Assembly: GCA_963971535.1 (NCBI GenBank)
Contig: OZ020598.1
Span: 86,204,122 to 86,268,121, forward strand
DNA from: Notolepis coatsorum
Lineage: Eukaryota > Chordata > Actinopteri > Aulopiformes > Paralepididae
Reading direction: 5' to 3'
DNA: 64,000 nt
Shown: positions 16,172-52,673 of the stretch, one piece after another
Layout: the number at the start of each line of letters is the position of its first letter
Numbering within the stretch: position 1 is the first letter of the stretch
The notes under the pieces: model-generated
What the model was told of the DNA's origin: nothing
Databases searched by the model: none
The model's input: the letters and a program-made list of their open reading frames with translations, nothing else
Position numbers and translations under genes: made by a program

Positions 16172-16438
16172 ATCTTCTGCTAGAAACTCTTGAGAGGCTG
16201 GACACAGATCATCTGAAGAGGTTTCAGTCTTCTCTGACCACTGACCTGCTGCCTGGCTGTCCTACCATCCCTGAGAGCCAGCTGGAGAACACTAACATGA
16301 AGACCACAGTGGATCAGATGGTGGAGACATACGGCTCTGACGGAGCTGTGAGGATCACAGTGGAGAGTCTGAAGAGGATGTATTGTTATCCTCCTAATGA
16401 GAGGTTACCACAGTATGTGGAGAGGTTAAGGATTAAAG
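16172..16438 (+). CDS. PYD exon 1 (A/B hybrid), internal exon
   Basis: An 89-codon exon encoding a pyrin (DAPIN) death-fold domain. Helix 1 is LLETLERL, helix 2 is LKRFQSSL, and the central stretch is IPESQLENTNMKTTVDQMVE. The final helices contain AVRITVESLKRM, followed by a short tail YCYPPNERLPQYVERLRIK. PYDs nucleate ASC-type inflammasome filaments through homotypic contacts. The exon starts after ttgtaccag with two bases of a codon and ends one base into a codon before GTAAGA, so it is phase 1 at both ends. Its acceptor flank is class A and its donor and tail are class B, so it looks like a recombinant. It has no ATG, so it is an internal exon. The PYD identity is from motif recognition, not a search. 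Confidence 0.85.
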
Positions 16439-17175
16439 GTAAGAAAAGAACATCTGCATTTCAAGTACAATGATTGTACGCTTGTTGAATGTATTGTGAG
16501 AAATACCTCTGATAAAGAGAAGCTATGTAATGTGTCTCTGTTGAACAATACATTTCCAAACTTGGTGACCTCATGGAAACCAAGGACCTCAACATCAATC
16601 CCATCAACATTATATATTTACCACATATATATATCCATATCCATATCTGTCTGCATATAATCCTTCCATATACCTACTTATACACCTGCATATAACCCAT
16701 ATAACTCTGTATGGTAGCATGTACTGTACAACAATGCTGTATATAGTATACCATATATACATCTGTCTGTACATACCTGCACATAATAATTTTTAGATAT
16801 CTGTAGATACTATATTTATATCTGTACATATCCCTTACCTACTCTTACTAGTTATGCTGCTGGCCACTATGACTACTACAGTACCATACTGTCTTTATAC
16901 CTGTATTACAACCCTGTACATAGATCTGATTAGCACTACACCCAGTAGTACTAATTTATATATTTTACACCCAGTTTAATCACCTGTACATTGTATATTA
17001 CTATTGCACTTTACTGTTACATTTGTACTCTGGTTGGATGCCAAACTTATTTTCGTTGTACTGTACTTGTGCTGTATAATGCCAATACATTTGAATCTAA
17101 TCTAATGAAGTAACATAATAACATATCTAAAAAATAGCCAGAATCAGTGGAAAGAAAGATAGAAAGATAAATATT
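16439..17175 (+). other. AT-rich unit spacer after exon 1
   Basis: Intronic spacer shared by each unit: GTAAGAAAAGAACATCTGC, then ATATATCCATATCTGTCTGC, then the phrase GGTTGGATGCCAAACTTATT and a tail TTTGAATCTAATCTAATG. The last part resembles a LINE 3' end (a short tandem tail). It was probably captured before the units duplicated. Confidence 0.6.
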
Positions 17176-18190
17176 ATGACACCTACCTGCCTGACATTCT
17201 TGTTTTATGTTGTTATACAAATAGATATCAACTCACTCACTCACTCACTCACTCACTCACTCACTCACTCACTCACTCACTCACTCACTCACTCACTCAC
17301 TCACTCACTCACTCACTCACTCACTCACTCACTCACTCACTCACTCACTCACTCACTCACTCACTCACTCACTCACTCACTCACTCACTCACTCACTCAC
17401 TCCCTCACTCACTCACTCACTCACTCACTCACTCACTCACTCACTCACATGCTATCATGGATATATCACAAAACTAGTCCCTTGGGCCTTTTCTCACAGA
17501 TGAGCCTGAACATCTTTTAGCTTCTTGTTTCTTGTTTTATGTTGTTATACAAATAGATATCAACTCACTCACTCACTCACTCACTCACTCACTCACTCAC
17601 TCACTCACTCACTCACTCACTCACTCACTCACTCACTCACTCACTCACTCCCACAGTCACTCACTCACTCACTCACTCACTCACTCACTCACTCACTCAC
17701 TCACTCACTCACTCACTCACTCACTCACTCACTCACTCACTCACTCACTCACTCACTCACTCACTCACTCACTCACTCACTCACTCACTCACTGACTGTT
17801 TCAGTCACATGCTATCATGGATATATCATAAAACTAGTCCCTTGGGCCTTTTCTCACAGATGAGCCTGAACATCTTTTAGCTTCTTGTTTCTTGTTTTAT
17901 GTTGTTATACAAATAGATATCAACTCACTCACTCACTCACTCACTCACTCACTCACTCACTCACCCACTCACTCACTCACTCACTCACTCACTCACTCAC
18001 TCACTCACTCACTCACTCACTCACTCACTCACTCACTCACTCACTCACTCACTCACTCACTCACTCACTCACTCCCACAGTCACTCACTCACTCACTCAC
18101 TCACTGACTGTTTCAGTCACATGCTATCATGGATATATCACAAAACTATAGTCCCTAGTCCCTTTTCTCACAGATGAGCCTGAACATCTT
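17176..18190 (+). repeat. Triplicated intron block with three (TCAC)n tracts
   Basis: A block of about 360 bp (TTTTATGTTGTTATACAAAT, then (TCAC)n, then CATGCTATCATGGATATATC, ending near CATCTTTTAGC) is repeated three times in tandem. The TCAC tracts run at about 17231-17448, 17563-17793 and 17923-18107. The second and third share a CCCACAG interruption. The block occurs once in other units. Confidence 0.9.
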
Positions 18191-18248
18191 TTAGCTGAAC
18201 ATGTTACAATATCAGTGACTGATTACTGACAATGGGTGAAATACCAGG

Positions 18249-19192
18249 TTAAAGGTCCTGTGTCTTATAAATGGCCTTTTCCAGTGTTTAGCATTCTTTT
18301 ATAGCAATGGGGGTTTGTATCAATGGGTCTGTTTCTCTAATCCTCATTTTGGCAGATTGCTCTAATTCAGTTGAGACAATCTCCTCCCCCAGTGAACTAA
18401 GCTATTCTGATTTGACTCGCTATCATACGTAGCAAGGAGCTGATCTGCAGTAACGCCCCCTCTATGGTTGTAGCGCAACCATTCACTCAACAACAGAGCG
18501 AGTGGAAATACCTGACACTTCCTCAAGCGGGTTTTGACAGAGAGAGGCAGAGAATGAGCCAGCGAGAGAGAGGGAGAGAGAGAGATAGAGAGGGACAGGA
18601 GCCTCTGTCGGGGAAACACACACGCATTTACACAGACACAACCTCGACCAGCGCGCAGGGAAACACACGCGCATTTACACACACACAACCTCGACCGGCG
18701 CGCGGGGAAACACACACGCATTTACACACACACAACCTCAACCGGCGTGCAGGGCTGGTATGGGTCTTCTCCCTGGGAGCACTCGCATATCACTGTCAAA
18801 ATATCTTTGACTCCCACGCGCACGCCCATATTCCGATCTGTGCAATAATATTCACAGGGGTATATATTGTCATTTGAAACAAGTTACCAATGCATTGTCC
18901 CGTGAGATTATGCCCCCCTGCGGCGAAATTAATTAGTATCCCCCTCAATCTTTCTATCTCTCTCTCTGTCTGCCAGTCGCAGACTGTGGGTGACTGTCAC
19001 TCAAAGGGCTTATGGGCGGAGCCCAGCCAAAACAGCTTGAAATCTTGAAGTCGAAATGTTTTGCTTCTGAGTATTTGAGTAAAAATATAAAACAATGATT
19101 TTTTTTTTTGAAAAAAACTTTACAGATGTGTTCCATAGACTCACAGGAATTGTGTAAAGTTGCCCAAATAGTGAAAGGCATGTCCCCTTTAA
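18249..19192. mobile_element. TTAA-inserting DNA element, copy 1
   Basis: A 936 bp element (18253-19188) flanked by TTAA on both sides. The equivalent site in other units reads CAGTTAAGCAATG, so the empty site is known. The ends AGGTCCTGTG and AGGGGACATG (reverse complement) form weak inverted repeats. It contains GA- and CA-rich tracts and a tandem repeat near 18600-18740 (AACCTCGACC, AAACACACACGCATTTACAC). A copy in opposite orientation lies at 28433. There is no transposase. TTAA duplication suits piggyBac or Kolobok. Confidence 0.8.
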
Positions 19193-19237
19193 GCAATGTT
19201 TGACTTTCATAACATGTGCATTGCCTCTTTGTACCAG

Positions 19238-51183: not shown

Positions 51184-51376
51184 CAGGCAGTTTGTTGATA
51201 ATGAGTTATAAATAATGTAGAACTAATCTGTAAATGTTATACAAATATAGTTATAAATGATTTAATAATCATTTATGAATGTATATAAATGGTTTGTTCA
51301 TGATTAGTTCATTATCTACAAATACCTTATAAATGTATTATAACAGGGTGTTATTATAAAGTGCTACCTAAGCTTG

Positions 51377-52243
51377 TTGAATGTATTGTGAGAAATACCT
51401 TTGATAAAGAGAAGCTATGTAATGTGTCTCTGTTGAACAATACATCTCCAAACTTGGTGACCTCATGGAAACCAAGGACCTCAACATCAACCCCATCAAC
51501 ATTATATATTTACCGCATATATATACATATCCATATCTGTCTGCATATAATCTTCCTATATACCTACTGTACTTATACACCTGCATATAACCCATATAAC
51601 TCTGTATGGTAGCATGTACAACAATGCTGTAGATACCATATATATATATATATATATATATATATATATATATATATATATATATATATATATATATATA
51701 TATATATATATATATATATATATATATATATATATATATATATATATATATCTGTCTGTAGATACCTGCACATAATCATTTTTAGATATCAGTAGATACT
51801 ATATTTATATCTGTACATATCCCTTACCGACTCTTATGCTGCTGGCCAGTATGACTACTACCATACTGTCTTTATACCTGTATCACTGTACGTATTGGTA
51901 TTACAACCCTGTACATAAATCTAATTACTACTACACCCAGTAGAACTAATTTATATATTTTATACCCAGTTTAATCACCTGTACATTGTATATTAGGCTA
52001 CTATTGCACTTTACTGTTACATTTGCACTCTGGTTGGATGCCAAACTTATTTTCGTTGTACTGTACTTGTGCTGTATAATGACAATACATTTGAATTTAA
52101 TCTAATGAAGTAACATAATAACCTATCTATAAAATAGCCAGAATCAGTAGAAATAAAGATGGAAAGAGAAATGTTATGACACCTACCTCCGGACAATCTC
52201 TTGTCTTTGTTTTAGGTTGTTGTTATACAAATAAATATCCACA
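51377..52243 (+). other. Unit spacer after exon 10 with (TA)n
   Basis: Common spacer resumed after the palindromic element, with a 113 bp pure (TA)n tract at 51639-51751. It ends at ATTTGAATTTAATCTAATG and the TATACAAATAAATATCC block. Confidence 0.75.
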
Positions 52244-52260
52244 CTCACTCACTCACTCAG
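52244..52260 (+). repeat. (TCAC)n microsatellite, unit 6, contracted
   Basis: Only about four TCAC repeats remain at the position that carries 60-215 bp in other units. Confidence 0.85.
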
Positions 52261-52427
52261 TCACATGCTATCATGGATATATCACAAAACTAGTCCCTTT
52301 TCTCACAGATGAGGCTGAGCATCTTTTAGCTGAACATGTTACAATATCAGTGATTATTGACGATGGGTGAAATACCAGTTAAGCAATGTTTGACTTCCAT
52401 AACATGTTCATTGCCTCTTTGTACCAG

Positions 52428-52673
52428 ATCTTCTGCTAGAAACTCTTGAGGGGCTGGACACTGATCATCTGAAGATGTTTCAGTCTTCTCTGACCACTGA
52501 CCTGCTGCCTGGCTGTCCTACCATCCCTGAGAGCCAGCTGGAGAACACTAACATGAAGACCACAGTGGATCAGATGGTGGAGACATACAGCTCTGAGGGA
52601 GCTGTGAAGATCACAGTGGAGAGTCTGAAGAGGATGGGATTGTGTGATAATGCTGAGATTTTAAAGTGTAAAG
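52428..52673 (+). CDS. PYD exon 11 (class A)
   Basis: An 82-codon phase 1-1 exon: LLLETLEGLDTDHLKMFQSS, ENTNMKTTVDQMVE (the Asp-to-Asn change is shared with exon 1), TYSSEGAVKIT and GLCDNAEILKCK. Acceptor TTTGTACCAG, donor GTAATG. A TTAA insertion begins 28 bp after the donor. No class B partner follows within the window, so the array is either interrupted here or continues beyond. Confidence 0.86.

Follow-up and report, generated by a model that had tools for sequence, protein, structure and literature searches.

Tandem pyrin-domain exons of the fish Notolepis coatsorum and their possible place in FIIND genes

The exon array and its two-exon unit

The DNA analysed in this study (the window) is a stretch of 64,000 nucleotides from contig OZ020598.1 (C43) of the Notolepis coatsorum assembly, and it carries an array of 11 exons on the forward strand, each of which encodes a pyrin domain (PYD) (Table 1). 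The window was read together with 100 kb of flanking DNA on each side, and genome-wide searches covered the 3.42-Gb assembly. An earlier note, made from the letters of the window, had described 11 open exons of 246 to 288 bp between 16172 and 52673, preceded by AG, followed by GT, in phase 1 at both ends and adding up to 2892 bp, or 964 codons. All of these statements were confirmed, and the donor reads GTAA in all 11 exons. In the PYRIN (PF02758) search that the note had proposed, each of the 11 exons was matched above the curated cut-off, with E values from 5e-12 to 4e-19. Extension of the locus added five more intact exons, 9.4-48.4 kb upstream of the window, and no further PYD exon was found in the 100 kb downstream. 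The whole array on C43 therefore consists of 16 intact exons across 101 kb, all of them in phase 1-1 and all above the PYRIN cut-off (16/16).

Table 1. Positions of the PYD exons and of transposon-related features in the window
Feature	Position	Strand	Remarks
PYD exon 1	16172..16438	+	A/B hybrid (5' side A-type, 3' side B-type), 267 bp, phase 1-1; PYRIN 4.7e-17
PYD exon 2	19238..19513	+	type A plus 10-residue in-frame insertion, 276 bp; PYRIN 8.3e-17
PYD exon 3	22079..22324	+	B/A hybrid (5' side B-type, 3' side A-type), 246 bp; PYRIN 4.7e-18
PYD exon 4	24382..24669	+	type B, 288 bp; PYRIN 5.7e-17
PYD exon 5	28162..28407	+	type A, 246 bp; PYRIN 1.6e-18
PYD exon 6	29462..29737	+	type B, 276 bp; PYRIN 5e-12, lowest score of the 11
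PYD exon 7	36737..36982	+	type A, 246 bp; PYRIN 1.7e-17
PYD exon 8	37222..37509	+	type B, 288 bp; PYRIN 8.9e-16
1284-aa open frame, intron between exons 8 and 9	41933..45787	+	LINE endonuclease/reverse transcriptase by eye
PYD exon 9	47656..47901	+	type A, 246 bp, copy modelled; PYRIN 3.9e-19
PYD exon 10	48133..48399	+	type B, 267 bp; PYRIN 5e-15
PYD exon 11	52428..52673	+	type A, 246 bp, last array exon found; PYRIN 5.5e-18
TTAA and start of young high-copy repeat	52701..53000 (TTAA 52701-52704)		28 bases past exon 11
DDE_Tnp_1_7 + zf-Tnp_2 fragment (piggyBac-type transposase)	55215..55859	-	domain matches; 2.5 kb beyond the TTAA

The fold of exon 9 was predicted with AlphaFold2. The best of five models (pLDDT 77.1; the other four 50-68) was a death fold of six helices, with helix 3 short as in PYDs and with helices 4 and 5 drawn as one. 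Among solved PYDs, this model was closest to those of ASC (the best, with a TM score of 0.90), NLRP6, POP1, pyrin and NLRP3.

The exon core had been described as almost invariant. The exons have a fixed core of 32 codons (DLLPGC..ETYGS) and fall into the two subtypes A and B and hybrids of them. Type A exons have the acceptor context ..CTCTTTGTACCAG and end in ..LKCK G, followed by GTAATG across the splice site, whereas type B exons have the acceptor context ..TTGATTTCTCAG or a near variant and mostly end in ..VERLRIK G, followed by GTAAGA. On contig C29, the exons stand in tandem units of about 1.9 kb with one A and one B exon per unit. Across the genome, at least 72 distinct A/B copies, some of them partial, were found in 10 clusters; the count was taken from the scored matches of two DNA searches (40 with an A query and 40 with a B query, after one short fragment had been dropped from each list of 41), and more candidates existed. 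The type alternates in 43 of the 52 unambiguous neighbour pairs, a number reached by none of 20,000 shuffles. From this alternation and the tandem units it follows that the multiplied thing is the A+B pair: the array grew as a unit of two exons, A followed by B, was duplicated again and again. Moreover, the hybrid exons 1 and 3 are evidence of recombination between A and B inside the exon; such events probably took place within the near-identical core and gave rise to the hybrids. Since both ends of every exon are in phase 1, any recombinant stays in frame. The exon family has expanded in this fish, and the 16-exon array to which the window belongs is a member of it with a 3' end interrupted by a young repeat. 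In the literature searched, which was mainly open-access, neither a multi-PYD exon array nor a PYDn-FIIND gene was found to be described. Tandem PYD exon arrays are therefore unreported as far as we found, and PYD and FIIND are each already known and occur together in human NLRP1.

Two details of single copies were also observed. The insertion in exon 2 (19238-19513) is 30 bp long and encodes the residues QWFQLFLTED, which we take to resemble part of a fish PYD of a more ordinary kind, as if the exon had recombined with another PYD family. At 51370-51510, about 1 kb before exon 11, a stray fragment of the B-type downstream intron, in which the 47-codon frame is open, stands without a B exon and is the trace of a lost B copy.

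Intactness and sequence change of the exons

The neutral expectation for loss of the reading frame was taken from a tree of the 16 exons on C43, which spans 0.69 substitutions per site overall. No stop-creating change was found in the 16 exons against 5.0 expected neutrally (probability of none 0.007), and no frameshift against the 9-15 expected from the indel rate of the flanking introns (probability of none 8e-5 to 2e-7). All 16 are intact while the short flanking intron stretches differ by 11-32%. On four contigs taken together, 34 copies were read at E<=1e-3, of which 31 are intact and have both AG and GTAA. A control was supplied by a 47-codon frame in the intron that follows B exons: of 17 B copies, 6 have it whole, 10 have it broken or incomplete and one lacks it, although it is open in all three C29 units that were read. 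This frame decays beside intact PYD frames, which argues that the intactness of the exons is more than chance. As a third exon of the unit, the 47-codon frame was rejected, since 11 of the 17 copies have it broken or incomplete or lack it. All 150 scored PYRIN matches, out of 282 candidates in the genome, are free of internal stops, in a first-pass search that favours good matches. By these features of the sequence, the A/B exons behave as internal coding exons that are in use. The earlier suggestion that interchangeable PYD exons might serve one multi-PYD product is supported by the frames, the splice sites, the phases and the alternating unit.

Substitutions among the 16 exons were counted by parsimony, and the 32-codon core was compared with the rest. 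The core has 9 synonymous (S) and 11 replacement (N) changes (p 0.07 on one tree and 0.03 on region trees), with a ratio of replacement to synonymous rates (dN/dS) of about 0.4. Of the 152 changes outside the core, 137 are replacements (S 15, N 137), and dN/dS there is 2.5 to 7; the difference between core and rest is significant (Fisher p 2.8e-4). On the 16-exon tree, the excess of amino-acid changes lies in helices 1-2 (S 9.2, N 52.8; p 0.006), helix 5 (S 1, N 20; p 0.02) and the tail (S 4.7, N 64.3; p 9e-4). A comparison of eight non-overlapping pairs, which covered helices 1-2, helix 5 and the core, gave S 7.2 versus N 45.8 for helices 1-2 (one-sided p 0.003 with kappa 2 and 0.015 with kappa 1), S 1 versus N 16 for helix 5 (p 0.04) and S 7 versus N 10 for the core (p 0.14), the last with no significant departure from neutral. 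In three units of the C29 array, the A exons have no synonymous and 8 replacement changes (p 0.08), and the B exons have 1 and 24 (p 0.004). The earlier note had held that a dN/dS near 1 with frame breaks would speak against it; the values found lie to either side of 1, in the core and in the rest, and none of the 16 frames is broken. The synonymous sites are unusually still, which indicates that gene conversion contributes to the N/S ratio. Gene conversion that homogenises the exons, together with selection that preserves amino-acid differences outside the core, fits both the still synonymous sites and the excess of replacements, a fit that falls short of proof.

FIIND beside two arrays and the proposed gene family

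Scoring of all 54 FIIND candidates gave 51 matches in the genome. One match, at C29:6188190-6188414(-) with an E value of 6.8e-23, follows the last B exon at C29:6192543 at a distance of 4.1 kb; another, at C3807:201774-201998(-) with an E value of 7.8e-23, follows the last B exon at C3807:206229 at a distance of 4.2 kb. In both cases the match is downstream of the array and shares its strand. The two matches are known by position and E value alone and belong to the ZU5 half of FIIND. An array followed by FIIND on the same strand is found at 2 of the 10 clusters (C29:6 Mb and C3807), and random placement predicts 0.0004 clusters with such a FIIND. Furthermore, each of the two arrays has on its 5' side, and on its own strand, a PYRIN match with an open frame of 148 aa (C29:6318659(-) and C3807:348957(-)); these matches are absent from the A/B match lists, and the frame is a candidate first exon at both loci. 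By match positions, and with 105 of 186 NACHT candidates scored, no NACHT match lies between array and FIIND. By the positions of these matches, the fullest members of the family would have an additional PYD frame, followed by (PYD-A, PYD-B)n and, after these, FIIND in its ZU5 half.

Among the other domains sought, Peptidase_C14 gave 50 matches (88 of 88 candidates scored), none of them near an array, and SPRY gave none near the arrays in a partial test of 150 scored out of 735 candidates. The UPA model PF17217 gave 10 matches, none near the arrays; it seems to catch other UPA types and is uninformative here. An ASC-like identity (PYD then CARD) was rejected because no CARD lies near the arrays, and a PYD-caspase identity of the caspy type was rejected because no Peptidase_C14 does. 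With ASC (PYCARD), the exons share the PYD fold (TM 0.90), whereas they differ from it in having no CARD near, in being internal exons without an ATG and in standing in tandem. The 5' ends of the arrays on C43, C8 and C29 have flanks rich in long interspersed nuclear elements (LINEs) in common, and their 3' ends disagree.

The explanation that we prefer, to which we would give about an even chance, is that the A/B exons are internal coding exons of (PYD-A, PYD-B)n-FIIND genes, NACHT-less relatives of NLRP1 and CARD8. The layout of NLRP1 is PYD-NACHT-LRR-FIIND-CARD in man and NACHT-LRR-FIIND-CARD in teleosts. As in NLRP1, PYD and FIIND stand in what looks like one gene; unlike NLRP1, which has one PYD or none, the arrays have many PYD exons, with no NACHT between array and FIIND and no CARD near. 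CARD8 has an N-terminal tail followed by FIIND and CARD, and thus a FIIND without NACHT and a variable N-terminal part. The proposed family would share with CARD8 the FIIND without NACHT and would differ from it in an N-terminal array of folded PYDs; a CARD was not found. The part of PMC9978379 that deals with piscine NLRP1 reports it without an N-terminal PYD. For NLRP1, the relevant portion of PMC5142783 places activating proteolysis, as well as positive selection in primates, in the N-terminal linker; the analogy therefore concerns the N-terminal position and not the PYD itself.

If the preferred explanation is right, the A+B unit would duplicate repeatedly, and recombination within the conserved core would create hybrids, all of them in frame. 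By analogy with NLRP1 and CARD8, the tandem PYDs would form the N-terminal part of a FIIND protein. Such a string of PYDs might offer pathogen proteins that bind PYDs or destroy them a tripwire with many replaceable baits. FIIND would provide the release: once a pathogen damaged the PYD part or caused its degradation, the C-terminal fragment of FIIND would be set free for signalling. That replacement changes are in excess on helices 1-2, on helix 5 and on the tail while the core stays fixed fits the bait reading. The whole of this picture, in which FIIND sensors without NACHT form a family and carry at the N-terminus a long row of diversifying PYDs on shuffle-ready exons, re-dealt by unequal recombination inside the conserved core, is put forward tentatively and is on balance somewhat unlikely.

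Several observations weigh against a family of PYDn-FIIND genes. None of the 51 FIIND matches lies on C43 and none lies beside the other seven clusters. The arrays at C29:6 Mb and C3807 are perhaps near-copies of one locus, in which case the link to FIIND may be a single observation, and immune genes cluster, so that placement is not random and the chance figure of 0.0004 is optimistic. For CARD, 54 matches were obtained from 83 of 83 candidates scored, and the nearest lies 1.4 Mb from an array. No ATG exon could be assigned to the array on C43: a start exon of PYD type was not found within 51 kb upstream, and other start exons were not systematically sought. Nor did any processed copy that joins one PYD to another turn up in a genome-wide pattern search with a tolerance of 3 mismatches. 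The three copies that are not intact, and one truncated B exon below the threshold, all sit at array ends, which are thus ragged. The core taken alone departs from neutrality without firmness (p 0.07 on the tree and 0.14 in the pairs), the replacement rate outside the core is about that of the introns, and the synonymous sites are quieter than the introns. According to the same portion of PMC5142783, the selected piece of primate NLRP1 is an unstructured linker, and its PYD is dispensable for activation and autoinhibition, which makes the analogy to folded PYDs a loose one.

The window's own array may be an orphan block, severed from its gene and intact mainly through its youth and through gene conversion from functional sisters, which we regard as unlikely but deserving of real weight. 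The repeat that follows the TTAA past exon 11 is 95-100% identical to 39 other scored places, among 1,688 candidates, and the A-type intron does not resume downstream of it. The TTAA and the transposase fragment beyond it make a piggyBac-like insertion likely. A young repeat about 30 bp past the last exon, on a contig with no FIIND match, means that the array may be orphaned; it may have lost the connection to its 3' exons, or the gene may have a different kind of end. The broken copies at the ends of other arrays, three of which terminate in truncated PYDs, and the synonymous exon sites, which are less diverged than the introns, also favour severance. However, all 16 exons are intact across 101 kb despite the divergence of their flanking introns, and conversion would erase the very amino-acid differences that are seen outside the core. 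That a FIIND protein is still functional at this locus has, in our judgement, well below an even chance.

A poly-PYD protein that is complete without FIIND, encoded by the array together with a short first and a short last exon, would act as a soluble scaffold or decoy, comparable to a giant PYD-only protein (POP) that seeds or caps ASC filaments. If the array in the window is self-contained, it would share with POPs a PYD without other domains; POPs hold a single PYD, unlike the tandem array. This explanation, which we consider improbable, draws on the 8 of 10 clusters, including the window's own, that have no FIIND, CARD, caspase or scored NACHT match nearby, and on exons that are intact and diversifying. 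It is opposed by the two clusters with FIIND downstream and by the array ends, since a comparison of four arrays by alignment and by eye recognised no common non-PYD exon.

The earlier note had also considered that an NLR-type gene, which would have NACHT, might draw on the exons as an interchangeable bank; one or a few of them would then be used per transcript. The exons are indeed all symmetric and phase-compatible, and fish NLR-B30.2/NLR-C genes offer a comparison: in the sections of Howe et al. 2016 (PMC4852459) that treat them, repeated N-terminal peptide exons are shuffled between genes, with gene conversion proposed. As here, repeated N-terminal modules stand on their own exons; unlike here, the repeats are of about 30 residues, are not PYDs and are tied to FISNA-NACHT, which was not found here. 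NACHT, which the note had not seen in the window, is absent from the whole of C43 among 54 matches (105 of 186 candidates scored), the nearest match to any array being 4.6 Mb away, and none of the 36 FISNA matches (56 of 56 candidates scored) is near an array. Moreover, the NLR- and ASC-type PYDs read in this study stand in open frames that have an ATG of their own, and they show about 41% identity, and it is FIIND that follows two sister arrays instead. The exon bank is thus nearly excluded. That every A-B pair forms a small gene by itself, with the genes clustered in tandem, is scarcely credible, for while the regular 1.9-kb units on C29, the in-frame ATG codons just upstream of exon 10 and the 47-codon frame open after B in 3 of 3 C29 units would suit it, the A-type acceptors in the window have an in-frame upstream stop within about 10 codons and no ATG, and that frame is lost in most B copies.

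For the (PYD-A, PYD-B)n-FIIND explanation, the consequences lie in what a PYD is known to do. The PYD of known inflammasomes is a switch that polymerises once brought together, and a polypeptide with at least 10 PYDs would need some way to avoid firing by itself. If the arrays do sit before FIIND, they would represent a route to new pathogen sensors in which the bait domain is multiplied as interchangeable exons and everything else is left to release by degradation. Testable predictions on splicing, binding partners and pathogen targets follow from the A/B unit, from the fixed core and from the diversifying surface.

Other PYD loci and neighbouring features

The introns had been described as full of transposons, a statement that was checked less fully than the others. 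Besides the piggyBac-type match, the signs are a DUF1759 match just under the cut-off and LINE frames judged by eye; the frame between exons 8 and 9 is presumably a LINE endonuclease/reverse transcriptase. A region at C8:158.9 Mb that is common with the right end of the window (63296 onward) was set aside as probably a long terminal repeat beside the frame with the DUF1759 match.

Multi-PYD arrangements of other kinds were seen elsewhere. At C13:2.56-2.84 Mb (-), the order along the strand is FIIND (2835901), the C-half of FIIND (2833389), ten PYRIN matches (2767424 to 2572137) and CARD (2555938), which may be another multi-PYD arrangement, here placed between FIIND and CARD. At C6:200.01 Mb (+), CARD (200011805), PYD (200012935) and FIIND (200014092) follow within 3 kb in the unusual order CARD-PYD-FIIND.

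Long single-frame PYD open frames elsewhere were considered as stand-ins for transcripts of the array and were rejected, as the five that were read belong to other PYD subfamilies. At C46:3.85 Mb, a 520-aa frame reads PYD-(B-box-like)x3-PYD-CARD, the B-box being named by eye; at C43:95.38 Mb, a 405-aa frame reads PYD-PYD-(GAASG)n-CARD with an incomplete CARD; and at C17:40 kb, a 472-aa frame reads PYD-(GAASG)n. These three single frames, whose PYDs and CARDs were identified by domain matches, read like retrocopies of ASC type, which makes it probable that two-PYD ASC-like transcripts existed. In addition, a 375-aa single frame at C9:95.72 Mb joins a PYD to several LRR units, as judged by eye, with no NACHT in the frame. 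Twelve dispersed PYD matches, for example at C13:16.23, C4:105.99, C9:29.85, C35:90.81 and C43:9.97 Mb, all have a 93-aa open frame and are perhaps the cargo of a mobile element or scattered retrocopies. Finally, about 39-61 kb downstream of the window, four near-identical uninterrupted frames of 372-449 aa lie on the minus strand; we take them to be a PPIL4-type cyclophilin, perhaps a retrocopy duplicated in tandem.

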